This document shows positions 14,091 to 58,948 of a DNA stretch of 64,000 nt, in pieces; position 1 is the stretch's first letter, and each line of letters starts with the position of its first letter. The DNA is taken from the NCBI RefSeq assembly GCF_004339765.1, contig NZ_SMGO01000003.1, positions 310,001-374,000 on the forward strand, given 5' to 3'. This stretch comes from Albibacterium bauzanense. Lineage in GTDB: Bacteria > Bacteroidota > Bacteroidia > Sphingobacteriales > Sphingobacteriaceae. Made by a program: the position numbers and the translations under genes. Under the pieces are notes generated by a model. The model ran no database searches. It was given only the letters and a program-made list of their open reading frames with translations, and was not told the origin of the DNA.

Positions 14091-16016
14091 CTATTCTTTA
14101 GATTTGATGGCAGATAGGTCTTGCTTTGGACGATCGGCATAGATCCACAAAACAATCGTTAATAGAATAGTTACTATTTGTGCCGCTAAAGATTGAACGG
14201 TCGGGTAGATTCCTAATGGTTCAAAACGAAGCCAATCGCTTACCAGGCTCATCTCGATGACCCCGGCTTCCTGCAAAGCAGAGAAACCTTTTCCTACTAA
14301 TACAACGGCAAGGATTGCCATCGTGAGGGCTGAGATCTTAAAGATCTGTTTAATGGGCAGACGTTTTGAGTAGTACATCATCAATATAGTGAAAACTATT
14401 ATAATAGCAGTCGAGGTGAGTAAAGCCCAGCCTATCGGTGAGCCGCTGCCTTCCGGAATATCCAATTTAAGTGCTGTTAAGAAAAGGATGACTTCGAAGG
14501 CTTCGCGAAACACAACAATGAACGAGAAGAGCATTAATCCCCACCAATTACCTGACTTTGATATTTTATTGATCTTAACTTCAATAAATTCCTTCCACTT
14601 TTTGATTTCTGACTTGCTGTGGAGCCAGGTACCCATAAAGATCAGGACAAATACGGCAATCAAAGAGCCTACTCCTTCCATCATTTCACGGCTGCTACCA
14701 CTGATCTTTACAAGTTGATCTACAAAAAACCAACTTATTATCCCAATAACCAATGCTGCAATCCAACCCAGGTGAAGAAACTTAATAGCCTTCTTAATCT
14801 TCAAAGGACGAAGAATACTTAAGATAACGATGATAATTAACAGAGCTTCCAATGCTTCTCTAAGGAGAATAGATAAAGCTGCCCAGAAAGTAAATCCGAA
14901 AGAATAAGAGTTATTATCCAGAGTTCCCTGAGCTTGTATAATCAGCTCATTAACATCGCTGTATGTTGAACGAACCAACGCTTCATCGTCACCTTTTAAA
15001 GCATTGCGATAAGCTAACATTGCCTTTTCAATGGTAATAACAATATTTTTATCTACAGCTTTTAAAGTATTCTCTACAATTTCAACACCTTCAAGATAAG
15101 AACTTAAAGCCAATTGCTGCGCTTGCCTTTTATCCTTATTTAGATAGGCCTGCAAAGAGGCATCTAAGTTATTAGAAGCGATATCAAGTGGTAAAACGCG
15201 CTCTGGTTCATAATGGCGAATTTGATTAAGCGTGACCTGTTGATCGGCTTTCGCTAAACTGGTTTCCAATTGCTGATCAGTCCATTTACTAACGCTATCC
15301 AGGTTAATTCCAGCAGGTAAACTTGCTAATTTATTGTCTGCTTCCGGATGGCTAAGCGACATGATGTAAAAAGAAACATCCCATAGCTCAGCTTCAGAAA
15401 GCTCAGCAAAAGAACGCATTGCGGTACCTTCCAATCCTAACTTTGCAACATTATAAGCTTGTACAGCTGTAAGGTTTTTCAGCGTACCGGGCTCTTGAAA
15501 ATTAGTTGGTGCCGGATCTAGACTTCCTGCAAGAATACCATCTCCTTTTCCTTGCGAACCATGACAGGACTGACATTTATCGTTATAAATCATCATTCCC
15601 GACTTTAAGCTAGGCCATTGATCAGGAGTTATTTTTATAAGACCCAGATCCAAGATCTTTTCTTTTATATCTCTCGCTTGTGTTTCTATTGACTCTTGAT
15701 CTGCTTTTGTTTGAATCAACTTCTTCAAATTCTCCAGCTCTCCTCTTAAATCTACAAAAACCTGGCTATTAACCTGCGGAACAAGATTTTCATGATAAGT
15801 AATGCAAGTTTGTGTAAACTCTGCAATCTCCTCAAATTCTGCTTCGTTAATAATTTTGCCATCCGCCACTGCACCTTCGTAATCTTTTGCAATATAATCT
15901 AACAAAGTCACCAGGGTTCTAGCTTCCTTTTCATTAACATCGGTTTGAGCCGAAGTAATAAAAGGGTTCACTAGAAAAAGAATGAAAAACAAAAGTGTAA
16001 TTTTCGAGAAGTTCAT
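14091..16016 (-). CDS. cytochrome c-FTR1 iron permease fusion
   Basis: The ATG at 16016 opens a clean signal peptide (MNFSKITLLFFILFLVNPFITSAQ); the longer form would start with TTG at 16031. About 640 residues: an N-terminal helical periplasmic region, a c-type cytochrome domain with CQSCH (148-152) and a probable axial Met near 200 in GTAMRSF, another helical periplasmic segment, and from about 375 an FTR1-type permease of about seven helices. The permease has both REXXE iron-binding motifs, REALE (386) and REAFE (504). In yeast and EfeUOB systems FTR1 needs iron oxidation; here a haem domain on the same chain could provide electron transfer, which is inference. A Fur-like box lies 107 bp upstream. 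Confidence 0.92.
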   Translation of the reverse strand: MNFSKITLLFFILFLVNPFITSAQTDVNEKEARTLVTLLDYIAKDYEGAVADGKIINEAEFEEIAEFTQTCITYHENLVPQVNSQVFVDLRGELENLKKLIQTKADQESIETQARDIKEKILDLGLIKITPDQWPSLKSGMMIYNDKCQSCHGSQGKGDGILAGSLDPAPTNFQEPGTLKNLTAVQAYNVAKLGLEGTAMRSFAELSEAELWDVSFYIMSLSHPEADNKLASLPAGINLDSVSKWTDQQLETSLAKADQQVTLNQIRHYEPERVLPLDIASNNLDASLQAYLNKDKRQAQQLALSSYLEGVEIVENTLKAVDKNIVITIEKAMLAYRNALKGDDEALVRSTYSDVNELIIQAQGTLDNNSYSFGFTFWAALSILLREALEALLIIIVILSILRPLKIKKAIKFLHLGWIAALVIGIISWFFVDQLVKISGSSREMMEGVGSLIAVFVLIFMGTWLHSKSEIKKWKEFIEVKINKISKSGNWWGLMLFSFIVVFREAFEVILFLTALKLDIPEGSGSPIGWALLTSTAIIIVFTILMMYYSKRLPIKQIFKISALTMAILAVVLVGKGFSALQEAGVIEMSLVSDWLRFEPLGIYPTVQSLAAQIVTILLTIVLWIYADRPKQDLSAIKSKE

Positions 16017-16122
16017 TTTAAAAAGAATCAATCAATTATTCGACGAATTGCTATCTGGCTTTCTTGTGTTCGCTGAAAGACTTAAGAGGATAGTAAAGAA
16101 ATACAGACAAAGATATAACTAT

Positions 16123-18700: not shown

Positions 18701-19609
18701 TTAAAAATACAGCTGAATTCCGCCAAGGAAACCAATGTTTACTGCATTCATTTCTCCATCTTTTAAACTATCTTTCCAGATATCGTTCTTGATCATATCT
18801 ATTCCTTCTGGAGTATTTGTAAAGATATGGCTAACTGCCGGACCACCATATATTTCGATATTCTTAGAAATTTTATAAGCTGGTATCAAGCGGATTGTCC
18901 CTTTTGAATACATACCTTTTTTAAAGTCGATTAGTGCTGTGTTTGCAGCTTCTACATTTAAACTAAATTGGTTTTTAGTTAACAAATGTGCCCCAAAGCC
19001 GGCTTCGAGAGCATATCGTTGTTTGTCATTCTGAATATTAAAACCCAGACCAACAATACCATACATGATTCTTCCACCCGAACGAAAAGAAGCTAATATG
19101 GTTTGATCATCATCAACACTAATACCGACGGCCTTGGTACCATCTGCAATCAAATTGACGATCCCGATTGGGTAATCACTACTATCAGCGATATTCATAA
19201 AACCTGCGAACTGCACCCCATGAACTTTACTTGCTTTATTAATAAAACCGGCAAGCTGCACTCCATGCACATCTCCACGTGCTATATTTGCAAAACCTGC
19301 CAATTGAAATCCTTTACCATTTTCATAGCTGTTCAGAAATCCAGCTAGTTGGACTCCCTTAGCTTCTTCCCGGATAATATTTGCGAGTCCTGCTAAGCTA
19401 ACTGCTTGTTCATTTTTTGATACTCCGGCAATGGCATGTAATGAAAGGATATTTGAATACTCTTTTGCATGAGTCCAATGATTGCTCAAGGGGTAAATTA
19501 ATCCTACATGTACAGACCTTTCTTTAGAAGATTGTGCAATAGCAGAGAAGGAAAATTGTGATAATAGTAGAATTGCAATAATAGCAATACGAATAGATTT
19601 GATTTTCAT
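18701..19609 (-). CDS. secreted surface-repeat protein (LA_2272-type VQLAG repeats)
   Basis: A 302-residue protein with a signal peptide (1-25, ending AIAQ) and five repeats of about 16 residues built on (K/H)GVQLAGFxN between residues 66 and 145, followed by a beta-strand-rich region related to the C-terminal part of the neighbouring STN protein (both contain a GPA block near the end). Repeats of this kind are annotated in databases as LA_2272-family surface repeats; function unknown. It has its own copy of the ATAGGGGT-N13-GTTGTC motif 20 bases before the ATG, so it should be a direct target of the sigma factor encoded at 22316-22888. Confidence 0.82.
   Translation of the reverse strand: MKIKSIRIAIIAILLLSQFSFSAIAQSSKERSVHVGLIYPLSNHWTHAKEYSNILSLHAIAGVSKNEQAVSLAGLANIIREEAKGVQLAGFLNSYENGKGFQLAGFANIARGDVHGVQLAGFINKASKVHGVQFAGFMNIADSSDYPIGIVNLIADGTKAVGISVDDDQTILASFRSGGRIMYGIVGLGFNIQNDKQRYALEAGFGAHLLTKNQFSLNVEAANTALIDFKKGMYSKGTIRLIPAYKISKNIEIYGGPAVSHIFTNTPEGIDMIKNDIWKDSLKDGEMNAVNIGFLGGIQLYF
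19160..19414 (-). repeat. five VQLAG-type protein repeats
   Basis: DNA coding for residues 66-150 of the smaller repeat protein: units of about 16 codons (VSLAGLAN, VQLAGFLN, FQLAGFAN, VQLAGFIN, VQFAGFMN cores). Confidence 0.8.
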
Positions 19610-19629: not shown

Positions 19630-19656
19630 GACAACCTGAAAGGAGAACACCCCTAT
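19630..19656 (-). promoter_or_regulatory. candidate ECF-sigma promoter, copy 3
   Basis: On the minus strand ATAGGGGT (19656-19649), 13 bases, GTTGTC (19635-19630). It is identical in both blocks and spacing to the two copies at 22932-23008 and points at the second repeat-protein gene, whose ATG is 20 bases downstream. It lies just after the stop of the STN gene, in the 53-bp intergenic gap. Confidence 0.7.
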
Positions 19657-19662
19657 AAAGAA

Positions 19663-21399
19663 TTAAAATAAAGTGATACCAAACTCCCAGCCTATCCAGC
19701 CATTGCTAGCTGAACTGAATTGCTTGCCTTGATAGCTGGTAAAGGGAAAGTCTTCTTTATAACCTTTAACTGCTGCTGTCCGGTCATCTACAAACAGGTT
19801 AAAAGCAGGACCGGCAAATACTCCAAAACGTTTTGAAATATTCAGATTTAAAAGTGTTTTTGCGCGATATAGATTACTGAGCTCTTTCCATTTTCCGAGG
19901 TAGACATTTTGAGTAGATAACTCTGTGGAAAGGAATAACCGATCATTAAAAATGAAATCATGTCCGAATCCTATTCCAAAGGTAAAAGCTTTCTGATTCT
20001 GAATAAAATTTCCTCCTCCTAATAAGACTGTATAAAATGCTGCATTACCCGTCTTAAATCCAACATTAATAGTATTAAACTCTGTATTTGATAAAATTAG
20101 ATTCTTATATCCGTCCTTAATAAAATTAAAGGCCCCAATGCTTACCCCGGAAGAAGTATCGGCAACATTAATAAAACCGATTTGAAGGCCTTTTAAATTT
20201 CTTGAATAATTAAATAAACCAGCTAATTGAACACCATTTGTTTTTGCAAGACTCACATTTGCAAATCCAGCCATTTGAAGTCCTTGGATTTCTTTTTTTG
20301 CAATATTAATACCTCCGGTCATTTGGACGCCATGAACACTTCCTTGTACTTTATTGTATATTCCGGCCATTTGAACGCCGTTAACACTATCAAGCACCGA
20401 ATTATTAGCACCAGCTAATTGAACTCCATTAACACTCCCTCCTACCAAATTGAATATTCCAGCGGCTTGTAAGAAATTGACATTTCTTTTATTGATGTTA
20501 AACCCACCTCCAAGTTCTACTCCGTTAACTCCTGAAGTATAACCTCCCAATACATTTATTGAAAATTTATTTATTACTTGTCCGCTTAAAGAACCATGCG
20601 TACTCAATCCCGGAGTTATGGAAGTCTGGAAAGGCGTATACGCAAAAAAACTTCCTAAGTTTAAACTTTGAAGTTTCTGTTTGGAAGAAACAAAGAACCT
20701 GCCCATTGCGGTCCTTTCAACCTTAAGTAAATCATCTCCAGGCTGATATCCATACCTTTCATTTTTACTACCTCCTGGTTTTATCAATACAGGAGCCAAC
20801 AAAACAATCGTAGTGTCGCGATAGTATTCTTTACTGATGGTCAATGACAGGCTATTTACCGGATTCTTTACTTTGAGCTTGAAATAGCCTTTTTCATCTG
20901 TAAGCGTTGAAAGCAGAAGGCTTTTTTCATACACACTGGCATTAGCTAATTTAGCACCAGTCAGATCATCTACAACATACCCTGTAATGGTATGAATCTG
21001 ATCGTATTCCAGGTTATCTTCAGAAACCAACTGTAAACGATTAGGGGCTAAACGAAGAATAACGTAATTAGGAGCCTCTTTATATTCATAATCTCCTTTC
21101 AAAAGTTTATTGAGAACCTCTTCTATACTTACTCCTTTAACGGAAATGCTAACTAAACTATCTTTGGGAATAACACTGCTGCTATAAGAAAAGTAAAAAT
21201 TACCAGACCTGCTTATTCTATCCAATACATCACTCAATTTCTCATCTTTAACATCTATCGATATCAGCTGAGTCAGGTAATTTTGAGCAATAGCATTATT
21301 TGTAAATAAAAAGCAGATGAAGATTAAAAGATAAAATCTTAACGATGCAGAATAATTTGCTCGCCACTTTTGTCTGCTTTTATGTTCAATGTTTGGCAT
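19663..21399 (-). CDS. STN-carboxypeptidase-like protein with nine VQLAG surface repeats
   Basis: A 578-residue protein with four parts: signal peptide (about 20-39, ending AIAQ); STN (secretin/TonB short N-terminal) domain at about 45-118; carboxypeptidase-regulatory-like beta-sandwich at about 137-205 (ITGYVVDDLTGAKLANASV); and a C-terminal region with nine repeats of about 16-19 residues on a GVQLAGxxN core (291-430), then strand-rich sequence. STN domains normally sit on TonB-dependent transducers and signal to FecR; here there is no TonB barrel on the chain. The gene overlaps the end of FecR by 61 bp, so it is in the sigma-FecR operon. I infer that it acts as the outer-membrane or surface sensor for FecR. 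Confidence 0.85.
   Translation of the reverse strand: MPNIEHKSRQKWRANYSASLRFYLLIFICFLFTNNAIAQNYLTQLISIDVKDEKLSDVLDRISRSGNFYFSYSSSVIPKDSLVSISVKGVSIEEVLNKLLKGDYEYKEAPNYVILRLAPNRLQLVSEDNLEYDQIHTITGYVVDDLTGAKLANASVYEKSLLLSTLTDEKGYFKLKVKNPVNSLSLTISKEYYRDTTIVLLAPVLIKPGGSKNERYGYQPGDDLLKVERTAMGRFFVSSKQKLQSLNLGSFFAYTPFQTSITPGLSTHGSLSGQVINKFSINVLGGYTSGVNGVELGGGFNINKRNVNFLQAAGIFNLVGGSVNGVQLAGANNSVLDSVNGVQMAGIYNKVQGSVHGVQMTGGINIAKKEIQGLQMAGFANVSLAKTNGVQLAGLFNYSRNLKGLQIGFINVADTSSGVSIGAFNFIKDGYKNLILSNTEFNTINVGFKTGNAAFYTVLLGGGNFIQNQKAFTFGIGFGHDFIFNDRLFLSTELSTQNVYLGKWKELSNLYRAKTLLNLNISKRFGVFAGPAFNLFVDDRTAAVKGYKEDFPFTSYQGKQFSSASNGWIGWEFGITLF
20110..20529 (-). repeat. nine VQLAG-type protein repeats
   Basis: DNA coding for residues 291-430 of the STN protein; cores include VELGGGFN, VQLAGANN, VQMAGIYN, VQMTGGIN, LQMAGFAN and VQLAGLFN. 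The units are diverged at the DNA level, so they look ancient, not recently expanded. Confidence 0.8.
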
Positions 21400-22319
21400 A
21401 TTATATCTAATATCGCATCAAGCGACTTGTCTTTAAAAGTAGTATTCAAAAGTATATTTTTCAACCCATTTCCTTCAATAATAATTTGAGCATCGTAAGC
21501 CTCGTTCAAAACTTCAACCAATCTCCAGAGGGGTGTATCGTCTGCAATAAACTCTTTATTTCTATAATATTTATACAATTGATCTGTATTTATTTTTTTC
21601 TCGAAACTATTATCTGATTTATTGATATCAACCATTTCATTACGTTTTAAGCGAATAATGATATCTTTTTTACTGACCTCCACTATACCTGTTTCTACGA
21701 TCAACTCTGTATGATCGTTTCCTGTTCTAATGTTAAAAGAAGTTCCGACAACCTTAACTTGTACATCATTAATGTTTACAATAAAAGGTTTAGATGGGTT
21801 GGGAGTGATATTAAAAAAGGCTTCTCCACCATCAAGGCTGATTGTTCTATTATTTCCAGAAAACCGTTTAGGATAGCTTAACTGACTATTCTTATTTAAT
21901 GTAACTATGGAACCATCTGGCAAGGTATCTATTCTAATTTCGTTGAATGTTTGAACAATAATAGTAGAATTTAGTCCTTTTGGATTTATAATAGTAATAT
22001 AAGAAAGCCATAAACCAACACTGACCAATACAAGAATTGCAGCTACTTTCAACCATTGAAATCCATCTGGTTTTCGACTGGAATTACTAATTTCTCCAGA
22101 TTGAACTCTTTTCTGAAATCTGGCCCAGGCTTCATCTTCATTGACTTCATTCTTAAGGGCGAAAGCTTCGCTCGATTCCAATATTAATTTAAAATCAGCA
22201 TATTTCTTTTCATTCTCAGCACTGTCCGCGATCCACTTTTCTACCAGCTCTTTTTCATCCGAACTAGTTTCGTTCACCAGATACTTAATTAATAACTCTT
22301 CATTCACCTTCTGTTTCAT
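21339..22319 (-). CDS. FecR-family anti-sigma/sigma regulator
   Basis: A 326-residue protein with the usual layout: cytoplasmic N-terminal anti-sigma region (1-85), one membrane helix (about 88-110, WLKVAAILVLVSVGLWLSYI), the periplasmic FecR domain (DGSIVTLNKNSQLSYPKRF, GEAFFNITPNPSKPFIV, VVGTSFNIR), and a C-terminal DUF4974-like segment resembling STN (TFKDKSLDAILDIICQTLNI). Its ATG overlaps the sigma gene stop (ATGA), and its end overlaps the STN gene by 61 bp. It should hold the sigma factor until signalled from the periplasm. Confidence 0.93.
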   Translation of the reverse strand: MKQKVNEELLIKYLVNETSSDEKELVEKWIADSAENEKKYADFKLILESSEAFALKNEVNEDEAWARFQKRVQSGEISNSSRKPDGFQWLKVAAILVLVSVGLWLSYITIINPKGLNSTIIVQTFNEIRIDTLPDGSIVTLNKNSQLSYPKRFSGNNRTISLDGGEAFFNITPNPSKPFIVNINDVQVKVVGTSFNIRTGNDHTELIVETGIVEVSKKDIIIRLKRNEMVDINKSDNSFEKKINTDQLYKYYRNKEFIADDTPLWRLVEVLNEAYDAQIIIEGNGLKNILLNTTFKDKSLDAILDIICQTLNIKADKSGEQIILHR

Positions 22320-22888
22320 AGCTTATAAAGATTTAGTAATAGAAAAAGAAGAGGTAAAAAGTCGATGAGTTCAAGCCTTAGAAGCTTTAAAGCTTTACCC
22401 ATCTGATTTTCTACAGTTTTAATGGATATATTTAATCTATCTGCAATCTCACGGTATTTTAATTCCTCAAAGCGACTCATCTGAAATACAGTTCTACAAC
22501 CTTCAGGTAAACGACTCAAGGCTTCATGCAGACGCTCTTCGAGTTCTTTTAATTGTACCCGACTGCTTGAAGCTTCGCTGCTTTCATCTTTCATGACGTA
22601 TACCTGATGTTGTTGATATTTTAGTTTCACTTTCTGATGCTTTAAATAATTCAGACTGTCATTATATACACTACGATATAGGAAAGCTTTGATTGAAGTA
22701 TGAACCATCAGGTCTTCCTTCTTTTCCCAAAGCCTCATAAATAAATTTTGCACGATTTCTTCTGCAGCCAGTTCATCCTTAAGAAAAGTATATGCATAGG
22801 CATATAATGCTTTAAAATGAGCTTTAAACAGCTCTTCAAAGTCTAGATCTGCCTTCAAAGGATTAAGTTCTGCCGATAACTTTATCAA
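22316..22888 (-). CDS. ECF RNA polymerase sigma factor, TTG start
   Basis: A 190-residue sigma-70 of the ECF class: region 2 (LFKAHFKALYAYAYTFLKDELAAEE, then VQNLFMRLWE) and region 4 (LPEGCRTVFQMSRFEELKYREI followed by the helix-turn-helix LNISIKTVENQMGKALKLLR). The C-terminus has a short hydrophobic tail (FLPLLFLLLNLYKL). The only start that keeps region 2 complete is TTG at 22888, with AAGGGA 3 bases upstream; an in-frame stop lies 15 bases further up, so no ATG is available. It carries a copy of the regulon motif upstream and is likely autoregulated. Confidence 0.92.
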   Translation of the reverse strand: MIKLSAELNPLKADLDFEELFKAHFKALYAYAYTFLKDELAAEEIVQNLFMRLWEKKEDLMVHTSIKAFLYRSVYNDSLNYLKHQKVKLKYQQHQVYVMKDESSEASSSRVQLKELEERLHEALSRLPEGCRTVFQMSRFEELKYREIADRLNISIKTVENQMGKALKLLRLELIDFLPLLFLLLNLYKL

Positions 22889-22931
22889 AATTCCCTTATG
22901 ATATCAATGTGTTTTATTAATTCAAATATAT

Positions 22932-22958
22932 GACAACATACCTTGGGTTTACCCCTAT
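22932..22958 (-). promoter_or_regulatory. candidate ECF-sigma promoter, copy 1 (autoregulation)
   Basis: On the minus strand ATAGGGGT (22958-22951), 13 bases, GTTGTC (22937-22932), ending 43 bases before the TTG of the sigma gene. The GTC in the downstream block is common in ECF -10 elements. Confidence 0.7.
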
Positions 22959-22981
22959 GCAAAATCAAAATAAATAATTAC

Positions 22982-23008
22982 ATAGGGGTAAAATGAATAT
23001 TGGTTGTC
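22982..23008 (+). promoter_or_regulatory. candidate ECF-sigma promoter, copy 2 (TonB receptor)
   Basis: ATAGGGGT (22982-22989), 13 bases, GTTGTC (23003-23008), ending 31 bases before the ATG at 23040. It is a mirror image of copy 1: TGACAAC and TTTACCCCTATG on one side match CATAGGGGTAAA and GTTGTCA on the other with equal 10-base gaps, around a 21-base centre. Confidence 0.72.
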
Positions 23009-23039: not shown

Positions 23040-25370
23040 ATGAACAAGTTTATTTCAACTTTAGCACTTATTGTCTTTATTAACCTTTCTGGTTTAGCAC
23101 AAGAACCGACACAACGTATACGAGGTATTGTTATTGATGAGGCATCTAATCAACCCTTACCTTTTGTAAGCATCGTTATTTTAAATAGCCAGCATGGTAC
23201 AACCACTGATAGTTTAGGGAACTTTATACTAAACGATATCGTTGTAGGCAGGTATACAATTCTGGCTTCAAGAGTTGGTTATGAATCTTATTCGGCAAAA
23301 GAAGTACAAGTAACTTCTGGTAAAGAAGTGTTTTTGAATATCTCTCTCAAAGAGAATATAAACACGCTTAGTGAAGTTATTATTAAGCCTACAATAAATA
23401 AAGGGCAAGCGTTAAATAATACGGCAACTGTAAGTGCCAGGATGTTAAGTGTAGAAGAAGCTAGCCGATATGCAGGTGGATTTGACGATCCGGCCAGATT
23501 GGTTTCTGCCTTTGCTGGTGTTTCCAGCAATACAAATAATAACTCGATCGTAGTTAGAGGTAATAGTCCACAGGCTTTACAATGGAAAATGGAAGGTATT
23601 GAAATTCCCAATCCTAATCATTTTGCAGATTTAGATGCTTTCGGTGGTGGCGGATTAACTGCATTAAGCAGTCAGCTTTTAGCCAACTCCGACTTCTACA
23701 CCGGTGCCATGCCAGCAGAATATAATAATGCCTTATCAGGGGTATTTGATATTTTTATGCGCAATGGTAACAATCAAAACCATGAACACACTTTTCAATT
23801 GGGTTTACTAGGAATTGATGCAGCTTCAGAAGGTCCTTTTAAGAAAGGAAAGCGTTCTTCCTATTTATTTAATTATCGATACTCAACCTTAGCTTTATTA
23901 GAGCCACTTTTACCAGAAAATTCAGGAGGTACAAGCTATCAGGATCTTTCTTTTAAACTTAACTTTCCGACAAAAAAAGCTGGTACCTTTTCAATATGGG
24001 GAATCGGGTTAATCGACGATTCAGGCGCAGAAGCAAAAAAGGATATGAGCGAATGGGAATATGATAGTGATATAGAAAATCAAGATGTAAAGCAATATAT
24101 GGGTGCATCTGGAATGAGCCATAAGTTGTTCTTAAACAACAACCAGTATATTAAAACAACCTTAGCTGCAACAACAACCGTTCTTGACATGGTTACTGAC
24201 AGATTAGATGATGACCTCTCTGTTTTTCCAAAAAACAGAATAAATAATAAAAACTATACCTTGACATTAAACTCATTCATCAACACAAAATTTAATGCAA
24301 AACATACCAATAAGACAGGACTTACAGCCACAGAAATGCTATATGATATTTCATTGAATAATGCCCTACCAATTGGAACACCCTTAGAGAACCTTGTTTC
24401 GGAAAACGGGCATAGTATGCTTCTTTCTGCTTATAGTAATTCGACTTTAAATTTATCTGAAAGATTTACAATGAACCTGGGAGTAAACGGGCAATTATTC
24501 ACATTAAATAAGAATTATACCATTGAACCTCGTGTGGGAGTTAAATATCAATATTCGCCAACACAGGCATTGAGTTTTGCGTACGGTTTACACAGTCGTT
24601 TAGAGCGGTTAAACTATTATTTTGTAAAGGGGAATGTAGGTGAAGATCTTAATAAGGATTTGGACTTTACTAAATCACATCATTTAGTATTGGGGTATGA
24701 TTTAAATCTATCAGAATATACTCACTTTAAAATTGAAGCCTATTACCAACATTTGTTTGATGTTCCAGTAATTCAAGACAGTTCCTTCTCATTAATAAAC
24801 CAACAGAATGATTGGTTTTTCAATGCACCTTTAAAGAATGAAGGAATGGGAAAAAATTATGGAGTAGATATTACTTTGGAGAAGTACCTGTCTCAAGGCT
24901 ATTATTATATGTTTACAGCCTCCATCTTTAATTCACAATATAAAGGCGGAGACGGAATATGGCGCGATACCCGGTATAATAGAAATTATGCATTCAATTT
25001 CTTAATCGGTAAAGAATGGCGGGTAGGTAGAAATAAACAAAATGTATTGGGGTTGAACGCACGATTGAGCTATCAAGGAGGTGAACGCTATTCTCCAATA
25101 AACACACAAGCCTCTCAACTATCTGAAGATGCCATTTTTGATGAAACTAACGCTTTCTCAAAACAGCTCTCTCCGGCTTTTACCAGTCACTTTACTGCAA
25201 GTTATAAAATGAATAAGGCAAAGTCAACGCATGAAATTGCATTTAAAATTTTAAATGCAACCATGCATCAAGAATTCTTAGGATTTCAATACAACTACCA
25301 AACTCAAGCAGTGGATGAATTTAGAGAAGCTCTTTTTGTTCCTAATTTAAGTTATAAAATTGAGTTCTGA
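23040..25370 (+). CDS. TonB-dependent receptor, carboxypeptidase-regulatory-like N-terminus
   Basis: A 776-residue outer-membrane receptor with a signal peptide (1-20), a carboxypeptidase-regulatory-like domain (about 26-110, IRGIVIDEASNQPLPFVSIV), a plug-like region (RLVSAFAGVSSNTNNNSIVVRG, then MEGIEIPNPNHF) and a beta-barrel ending in an aromatic residue (LSYKIEF). It has no STN domain of its own. It is divergent from the sigma-FecR-STN operon and shares the mirrored regulon promoter with it. The ligand is unknown; the plug has the form found in STN-less receptors of Bacteroidota. Confidence 0.92.
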   Translation: MNKFISTLALIVFINLSGLAQEPTQRIRGIVIDEASNQPLPFVSIVILNSQHGTTTDSLGNFILNDIVVGRYTILASRVGYESYSAKEVQVTSGKEVFLNISLKENINTLSEVIIKPTINKGQALNNTATVSARMLSVEEASRYAGGFDDPARLVSAFAGVSSNTNNNSIVVRGNSPQALQWKMEGIEIPNPNHFADLDAFGGGGLTALSSQLLANSDFYTGAMPAEYNNALSGVFDIFMRNGNNQNHEHTFQLGLLGIDAASEGPFKKGKRSSYLFNYRYSTLALLEPLLPENSGGTSYQDLSFKLNFPTKKAGTFSIWGIGLIDDSGAEAKKDMSEWEYDSDIENQDVKQYMGASGMSHKLFLNNNQYIKTTLAATTTVLDMVTDRLDDDLSVFPKNRINNKNYTLTLNSFINTKFNAKHTNKTGLTATEMLYDISLNNALPIGTPLENLVSENGHSMLLSAYSNSTLNLSERFTMNLGVNGQLFTLNKNYTIEPRVGVKYQYSPTQALSFAYGLHSRLERLNYYFVKGNVGEDLNKDLDFTKSHHLVLGYDLNLSEYTHFKIEAYYQHLFDVPVIQDSSFSLINQQNDWFFNAPLKNEGMGKNYGVDITLEKYLSQGYYYMFTASIFNSQYKGGDGIWRDTRYNRNYAFNFLIGKEWRVGRNKQNVLGLNARLSYQGGERYSPINTQASQLSEDAIFDETNAFSKQLSPAFTSHFTASYKMNKAKSTHEIAFKILNATMHQEFLGFQYNYQTQAVDEFREALFVPNLSYKIEF

Positions 25371-58324: not shown

Positions 58325-58948
58325 TTAACGATTACTAAACAAAACAGCTGACAATGTTATAAATATGTTAACTATTGAAGGGTTAAGCTCAACAGAGTTA
58401 TATTTATGAATAGTTGCCCTGATTTTTTTCAAGGCAGTGCTTAGCTGGTTTCTTACAGTTTTACCTGATACTTTTAATCGTGTTGCGATCTCTTCATTGG
58501 AAAGTCTTTCTTCCCTGCTAAGCAAGAATATTTCTTTCATCTTTTCGGGAAGATTGTTTATTTCCTGTTGAACGATAAATTCCAGCTCGTTACTCAGCAA
58601 CCAGGTATCGCTATAAGTATCGTCATAATCATTCTGTAATATCTTTTGATTTTCAAAAGATGTCTTTAAAATCTCTTTTCGGAAGAAATCTATGATGCGA
58701 CTTTTAAGACGTTTATGGAGTAGTGCACGAACAGACTGTTCATTTTCAAAGTCAAAATCACTTTCCAGCAAAGACAAAAATACATCTTGAAGAATATCCT
58801 CTGCATTTTCTTCACTTTGCAACCGACGAAAAGCAGCAATGTATAATTCCTTCCAGAACTTATTATACATTATCATAATATATTGACTGTTATTTTGTCG
58901 TTTCAATTTTGGCAACTGATTTAATGCCTTCAAATTTACCAATGGCAA
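58325..58948 (-). CDS. ECF RNA polymerase sigma factor of the SusCD locus, non-ATG start
   Basis: A 207-residue ECF sigma factor with region 2 (MYNKFWKELYIAAFRRLQSEENAEDI followed in frame by LQDVFLSLLES, seen as separate blocks) and region 4 (NLPEKMKEIFLLSREERL, then the helix-turn-helix NEEIATRLKVSGKTVRNQL). Homology to ECF proteins begins around residue 10, so the start must be one of the TTG codons at 58948, 58942 or 58933; the first ATG (58876) would remove about 24 residues of the N-terminal region. The exact start is unsure. It drives the fecR-susC-susD-phosphoesterase set downstream by context. Confidence 0.9.
   Translation of the reverse strand: MPLVNLKALNQLPKLKRQNNSQYIMIMYNKFWKELYIAAFRRLQSEENAEDILQDVFLSLLESDFDFENEQSVRALLHKRLKSRIIDFFRKEILKTSFENQKILQNDYDDTYSDTWLLSNELEFIVQQEINNLPEKMKEIFLLSREERLSNEEIATRLKVSGKTVRNQLSTALKKIRATIHKYNSVELNPSIVNIFITLSAVLFSNR

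Follow-up and report, generated by a model that had tools for sequence, protein, structure and literature searches.

Are three identical, promoter-like motifs in a stretch of Albibacterium bauzanense DNA of 64,000 nucleotides (the window) read by the extracytoplasmic function (ECF) sigma factor that is encoded between them? Many ECF sigma factors are encoded per Bacteroidota genome, though few have an assigned promoter. The comparisons described here make it very probable that the three sites are −35/−10 promoters of this sigma factor, which would provide one ECF sigma factor with exact predicted promoters, predicted transcription starts and a small regulon.

Three copies of a two-block motif

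The motif ATAGGGGT-N13-GTTGTC occurs in three copies with zero mismatches, at 22982-23008 (+), 22932-22958 (-) and 19630-19656 (-), and the spacer bases differ among the copies, exactly as an earlier note on this DNA had described them. The note had seen no other copy in the window and had suggested searching the genome with spacers of 12 to 14 bases, where many copies at random sites would have refuted its reading. Performed on the whole genome (G000, 3.08 Mb, 99.25% complete), this search returned exactly the three window sites, and the same three were the only matches after the −35 block had been cut to AGGGGT. Sites with one mismatch were absent from the whole genome and six sites had two mismatches, compared with 12 + 15 for the reversed-pattern control, so that the three-site set stands cleanly apart from the background. 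The six sites were not counted, since they are fewer than in the control and only one of them has an open reading frame (ORF) downstream. Dinucleotide shuffling of the window, repeated 100 times, gave an expectation of 0.25 matches at up to two mismatches, and none of the 100 shuffles reached three. The motif consists of two unlike blocks at one fixed gap and is neither a repeat nor a palindrome; it shows the G-rich −35 block and the GT-containing −10 block at fixed spacing that are expected of an ECF promoter.

Each site is aimed at a gene start, and the 20 to 43 bases given in the earlier note were recovered when the distances were measured. The predicted promoter on the plus strand (−35 at 22982-22989, −10 at 23003-23008) ends 31 bases before a divergent gene for a TonB-receptor-like outer-membrane protein. 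On the minus strand, the predicted promoter with its −35 block at 22951-22958 and its −10 block at 22932-22937, which has orthologous sites in relatives, ends 43 bases before the sigma gene, the first of an operon that continues with a FecR-type anti-sigma gene (fecR) and a gene for a protein with an STN domain (STN gene). The third predicted promoter (−35 at 19649-19656, −10 at 19630-19635, minus strand) sits in the 53-base gap following the STN gene and ends 20 bases before the gene of a second repeat protein (rep2). Transcription is predicted to start at A23019, 22921 and 19619, respectively, i.e. 11 bases past the last C of GTTGTC, if this C corresponds to the −11 master nucleotide; the prediction draws on the analogy to that nucleotide (PMC6372665) and on a conserved AAA in a 76-site profile, and refines the distance of 5 to 10 bases proposed in the earlier note. 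A text search of a collection of papers, performed on the −35 core GGGGT only, did not find the motif.

Conservation of the sites and covariation with the sigma factor

Conservation was addressed in a family set of 201 genomes, with 60 fetched loci analysed together with the window (61 loci, 1.15 Mb), and in 80 further loci from GTDB genomes (Pedobacter, Mucilaginibacter, Chitinophaga, Dyadobacter and others). At the threshold used, a homologue of the STN protein was found in 106 of the 201 family genomes, and the gene order sigma-fecR-STN is nearly constant in the 60 fetched loci and the window. In these 61 loci the strict motif was detected 27 times at gap 13 and never at gaps 6-12 and 14-21, and the relaxed motif 77 times at gap 13 and 0-3 times at other gaps; in the family and GTDB loci together, a search at equal stringency gave 156 sites at gap 13 and 4-11 sites at gaps 11, 12, 14, 15 and 16. 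The motif precedes an ORF in 114 of 118 distinct family/GTDB loci. Its most constant position is in front of rep2, where it ends exactly 21 bases from the gene in 30 of 62 cases. It stays with its genes across different orders, namely rep2-sigma-fecR-STN (49 loci), sigma-fecR-STN (39), sigma-fecR-STN-rep2 (11) and sigma-fecR-STN-TonB receptor (8). Exact matches number 50 across the 201 family genomes, and 31 of these have an STN-protein homologue within 10 kb. Two of the three window sites stand back to back, 23 bases apart, as might be expected if the copies were an artefact of local duplication or a chance coincidence; spacers and flanks differ, however, no shuffle reached three copies, and the sites recur in relatives with other gene orders. 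With the 13-base gap conserved in 114 of the 118 loci this explanation is refuted, and its probability is close to nil.

The system is widespread in the class Bacteroidia: the STN protein is present in 81 of 395 genomes and in 58 of 197 genera. In 51 of 57 further class-wide loci with sigma and STN genes the motif was found again in front of an ORF, with 93 sites at gap 13 and 3-16 at other gaps.

Variation among the loci is seen at two positions of the motif: base 4 of its −35 block is either G or A, and its −10 block ends in C, A or T. Promoter pairs of the same locus agree at both more often than expected, in 39 of 47 pairs for the last −10 base (22.5 expected) and in 40 of 47 for −35 base 4 (30.4 expected), and the spacer positions tested did not exhibit such agreement beyond chance. 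Of 190 sigma columns, residue 161 predicts −35 base 4 best; it belongs to the recognition helix of sigma4 and by alignment to solved ECF factors lies opposite the Ser of TVRSR in Pseudomonas SigH (AlgU-type). For the last −10 base, residues 62-64 were among the best predictors by association, and a tree-aware ranking placed residue 63 first and residue 62 second. These residues align to the middle of loop L3, where the flipped 'master nucleotide' is held and its identity determined (PMC6372665); in the account given there of the L3-loop swaps by Campagne et al., it is likewise L3 that sets the flipped −10 base. In the family set, C occurs with [IV]-[QHE]-T loops, A with T-D-G and T with F-[SN]-G, and two genomes with two systems each have one of C-type and one of A-type with matching loops. 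Such paralogues sharing a genome, namely the pairs L040/L083 and L074/L096, have A in one system and C in the other as the last −10 base, differ in L3 as well, and look as if they were insulated from each other.

The rule for residue 161 had been derived on the family set and was then tested on the class-wide loci. Base and residue combined as G/Asn in 46 loci, A/Asn in none, A/non-Asn in three and G/non-Asn in two (Fisher p 4.8e-4); residue 161 was again the first of 190 columns, with a balanced accuracy of 0.99, and in all 165 loci A at −35 base 4 never occurs with Asn161. The L3 rule is the weaker of the two out of sample, as discussed below.

Comparative data alone show that a site is constrained and not which protein binds it, and the motif might be the operator of another DNA-binding regulator that lies upstream of these genes by happenstance. 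Such an operator is highly improbable in view of the two unlike blocks with one fixed gap, a constant distance to gene starts and no repeat or palindrome; moreover, the variable bases covary with sigma residues of the expected helix and loop, and the motif is constantly accompanied by sigma, fecR and the STN gene, whereas its other neighbours change. A second possibility is that the promoters are shared among several of the genome's related ECF sigma factors. ECF regulons can overlap and the genome holds about 22 clear TIGR02985-like sigma genes, but the recognition helix KTVENQMGKA was found only in the studied factor among 20 sigma proteins fetched from the genome, none of the other 19 has its helix or its L3 loop, and the motif is confined to the locus; sharing is thus very unlikely. 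It is the conservation, the fixed 13-base gap, the same-locus agreement and the covariation with the expected contact residues that tie the motif to the local sigma factor, and the earlier note's suggestion that this factor is the one that reads it gains support from these sequence comparisons.

Several observations weigh against promoters read by the local sigma factor in an autoregulated manner. By the pattern used, no motif is found in 4 of the 118 family/GTDB loci and in 6 of the 57 class-wide loci. The 19 off-locus copies in the family genomes equal the number in the reversed-pattern control, so that some of them are chance matches. The tree has only about 8 changes of the −35 base, too few for an independent-pair sign test (p ~0.25) to reach significance. 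Many class-wide C-type loops depart from the family pattern, which weakens the L3 rule. Lastly, autoregulation of the sigma factor is not universal, since in 20 class-wide loci the motif stands at the sigma/fecR junction and is aimed at fecR; in these loci the feedback is predicted to fall on the anti-sigma factor and the STN protein and not on the sigma factor. The covariation between residue 161 and the −35 base is strong support and not proof. The sigma autoregulation advanced in the earlier note is retained as a prediction for the window and many family loci, where the motif precedes the sigma gene or its operon, and does not extend to the 20 loci.

A wider regulon was not deduced from the off-locus total, given the same number in the control; about 11 of the 19 off-locus copies are aimed at the start of an envelope gene. 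Among the six class-wide loci that lack the pattern, four (L273, L305, L261 and L303) have a residue other than Asn at position 161. L273 and L305 combine such a sigma factor with a variant site, missed by the pattern, that has A at −35 base 4, and no recognisable site was seen at L261 and L303.

The encoded proteins and the predicted transducer

The sigma gene (22316..22888, minus strand, TTG start uncertain) encodes a protein with regions 2 and 4 only (Sigma70_r2 and r4_2), and its score of 173.6 bits exceeds the family cut-off of 126.4, placing it among the ECF (group IV) factors of TIGR02985 type. No relative of it was found in the viral contigs searched, and the plasmids searched contain only distant ECF relatives, each <60% identical. 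A second TIGR02985-like ECF sigma gene is present in the window at 58412-58870 (-); it scores 113 bits, below the cut-off, and its helix and L3 loop differ. Beside the studied sigma gene, fecR (21339..22319, minus strand) encodes a FecR-type anti-sigma factor with FecR and FecR_C domains (PDB 4m0n, a putative anti-sigma factor, E 1e-25), an arrangement characteristic of Fec-type signalling. The ORF of the STN gene (19663..21399, minus strand) overlaps fecR by 61 bases, so that its real start may be later; it encodes a putative transducer of 578 residues with STN, CarboxypepD-like and LA_2272-type repeat regions. Rep2 (18701..19609, minus strand, 302 residues) is predicted to have the same C-terminal barrel with repeats and no STN domain. 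The LA_2272 repeats (NF047436) reached 25.0 and 25.3 bits with a curated cut-off of 25, i.e. a marginal match, and 17 of 36 rep2 homologues match this model at E <=0.01. The divergent TonB-receptor-like protein (23040..25370, plus strand) has an N-terminal CarboxypepD domain and no STN domain, and shows weak similarity to TonB receptors that themselves have Plug and TonB_dep_Rec matches.

An STN match was obtained for 47 of 52 homologues of the STN protein (E 5e-9 for the window member), as expected of an STN transducer, and a TonB Plug or TonB_dep_Rec match for none of the 52; the protein is predicted to lack the plug in a large barrel that marks a TonB-dependent receptor. Its structural model, of high confidence in the C-terminal half, predicts in order the STN domain, an Ig-like CarboxypepD domain, a low-confidence linker, a beta-solenoid (~277-427) and an 8-stranded outer-membrane barrel (427-578). 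Foldseek alone gave weak matches for the full model, and VIA-align was used as a second look: the solenoid aligns with tailspike beta-helices (Z ~10), and the nearest matches of the barrel are a designed barrel, OprF, NspA and OmpA (Z 13-14). The transducer is therefore predicted to be an OmpA-type barrel protein and not a TonB receptor, a feature that the earlier note had overlooked together with the spread of the system through the class. In barrels of this kind, all that precedes the first strand lies on the periplasmic side, and the solenoid and STN domain of the modelled protein are for this reason most likely periplasmic; the name 'surface repeat' may consequently be misleading for these proteins.

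Judged from known families, FecR in the inner membrane would hold the sigma factor, and the solenoid-barrel protein of the outer membrane would contact the periplasmic portion of FecR through its STN domain. Changes at the outer membrane may alter this contact, leading to cleavage of FecR and release of the sigma factor. The freed factor would transcribe its own operon (sigma, fecR and STN protein), the second repeat gene and the divergent TonB-receptor-like gene, and the output would be a self-amplifying burst limited by newly made FecR. In Pseudomonas the STN-FecR contact protects the anti-sigma factor from proteolysis (PMC11637429), which by analogy supports this working model.

Comparison with known systems and regulon content

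As in E. coli FecI/FecR/FecA, an ECF sigma factor is combined with a FecR anti-sigma factor that has a periplasmic domain and with an outer-membrane protein with an N-terminal STN domain. E. coli fecIR is transcribed by sigma70 under Fur without autoregulation (PMC9249621), and the autoregulation of ECF factors is described as having exceptions, among them FecI-like factors (PMC8103513); the earlier note, in pointing to the autoregulation known from ECF factors, had missed that those of Fec type usually do not autoregulate. Here, in contrast, the sigma gene, or the anti-sigma gene in 20 loci, carries the motif, and the plugged TonB-dependent receptor FecA has its counterpart in a protein predicted to have a solenoid and an 8-stranded barrel but to lack a plug. 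In Serratia HasI/HasS/HasR the sigma factor transcribes the anti-sigma gene and hasI is not autoregulated (PMC9249621), so that hasS parallels the 20 loci with the motif at fecR, whereas the predicted promoter of the window, and of most family loci, stands in front of the sigma gene or of the whole operon, and the transducer is predicted not to be a TonB receptor. The system is thus Fec-type in its sigma and anti-sigma factors and is predicted to depart from that type in the autoregulation of one or the other and in a transducer that is not a TonB receptor. The SM6 promoters of Flavobacterium psychrophilum, which were mapped experimentally, were assigned to an ECF sigma factor and include that of a sigma/anti-sigma pair (PMC9723704); the motif described there differs from the GTTGT[C/A/T] with a GGGGT −35 found here. 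The covariation code of Todor et al. 2020, as cited in PMC8103513, used autoregulated promoters to match sigma residues to bases. Compared with such ECF specificity studies, the present loci form a natural covariation series within one conserved signalling system, with N161 and −35 base 4 tested out of sample, and the natural series of sigma-promoter switches can be used for testing the ECF recognition code.

Besides repeat and TonB-receptor-like proteins, the genes preceded by the motif in relatives encode lipid A acyltransferases (PF03279, Pfam-confirmed, in two genera), small outer-membrane barrels (OMP_b-brl_2), DUF2807 lipoproteins, DUF6134 proteins and an epimerase, and in the sister species of the same genus the sigma operon begins with an outer-membrane barrel gene. 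This content tentatively favours a role in the outer envelope over the uptake of a single nutrient. Tentatively, we propose as a reasonable possibility a class-wide, TonB-independent signalling system in which an OmpA-like barrel with a periplasmic solenoid stalk and an STN tip would inform FecR about the condition of the outer membrane, and the freed sigma factor would remodel the envelope through repeat barrels, small outer-membrane barrels, TonB receptors and lipid A acyltransferases, with feedback on the sigma or the anti-sigma factor depending on the lineage and a specificity switched repeatedly by residue 161 and L3. Should the transducer be no TonB receptor, signalling of the Fec type would extend beyond TonB-receptor nutrient uptake and could be an outer-membrane sensor in the class.

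The acyltransferase genes with the motif are located at L062:7031-7933, where 154 bases separate the motif from the ORF start, and at L140:3724-4608 (-). In many Mucilaginibacter-type loci, namely at L176:6633-7313 and in 16 further loci, a DUF6134 protein is encoded by the motif-preceded gene in front of the sigma gene. Elsewhere in the window, an ORF of 646 residues at 14091-16031 (-) has an N-terminal half with the CxxCH motif that is typical of cytochrome c, and its membrane part appears to resemble FTR1-type iron permeases.

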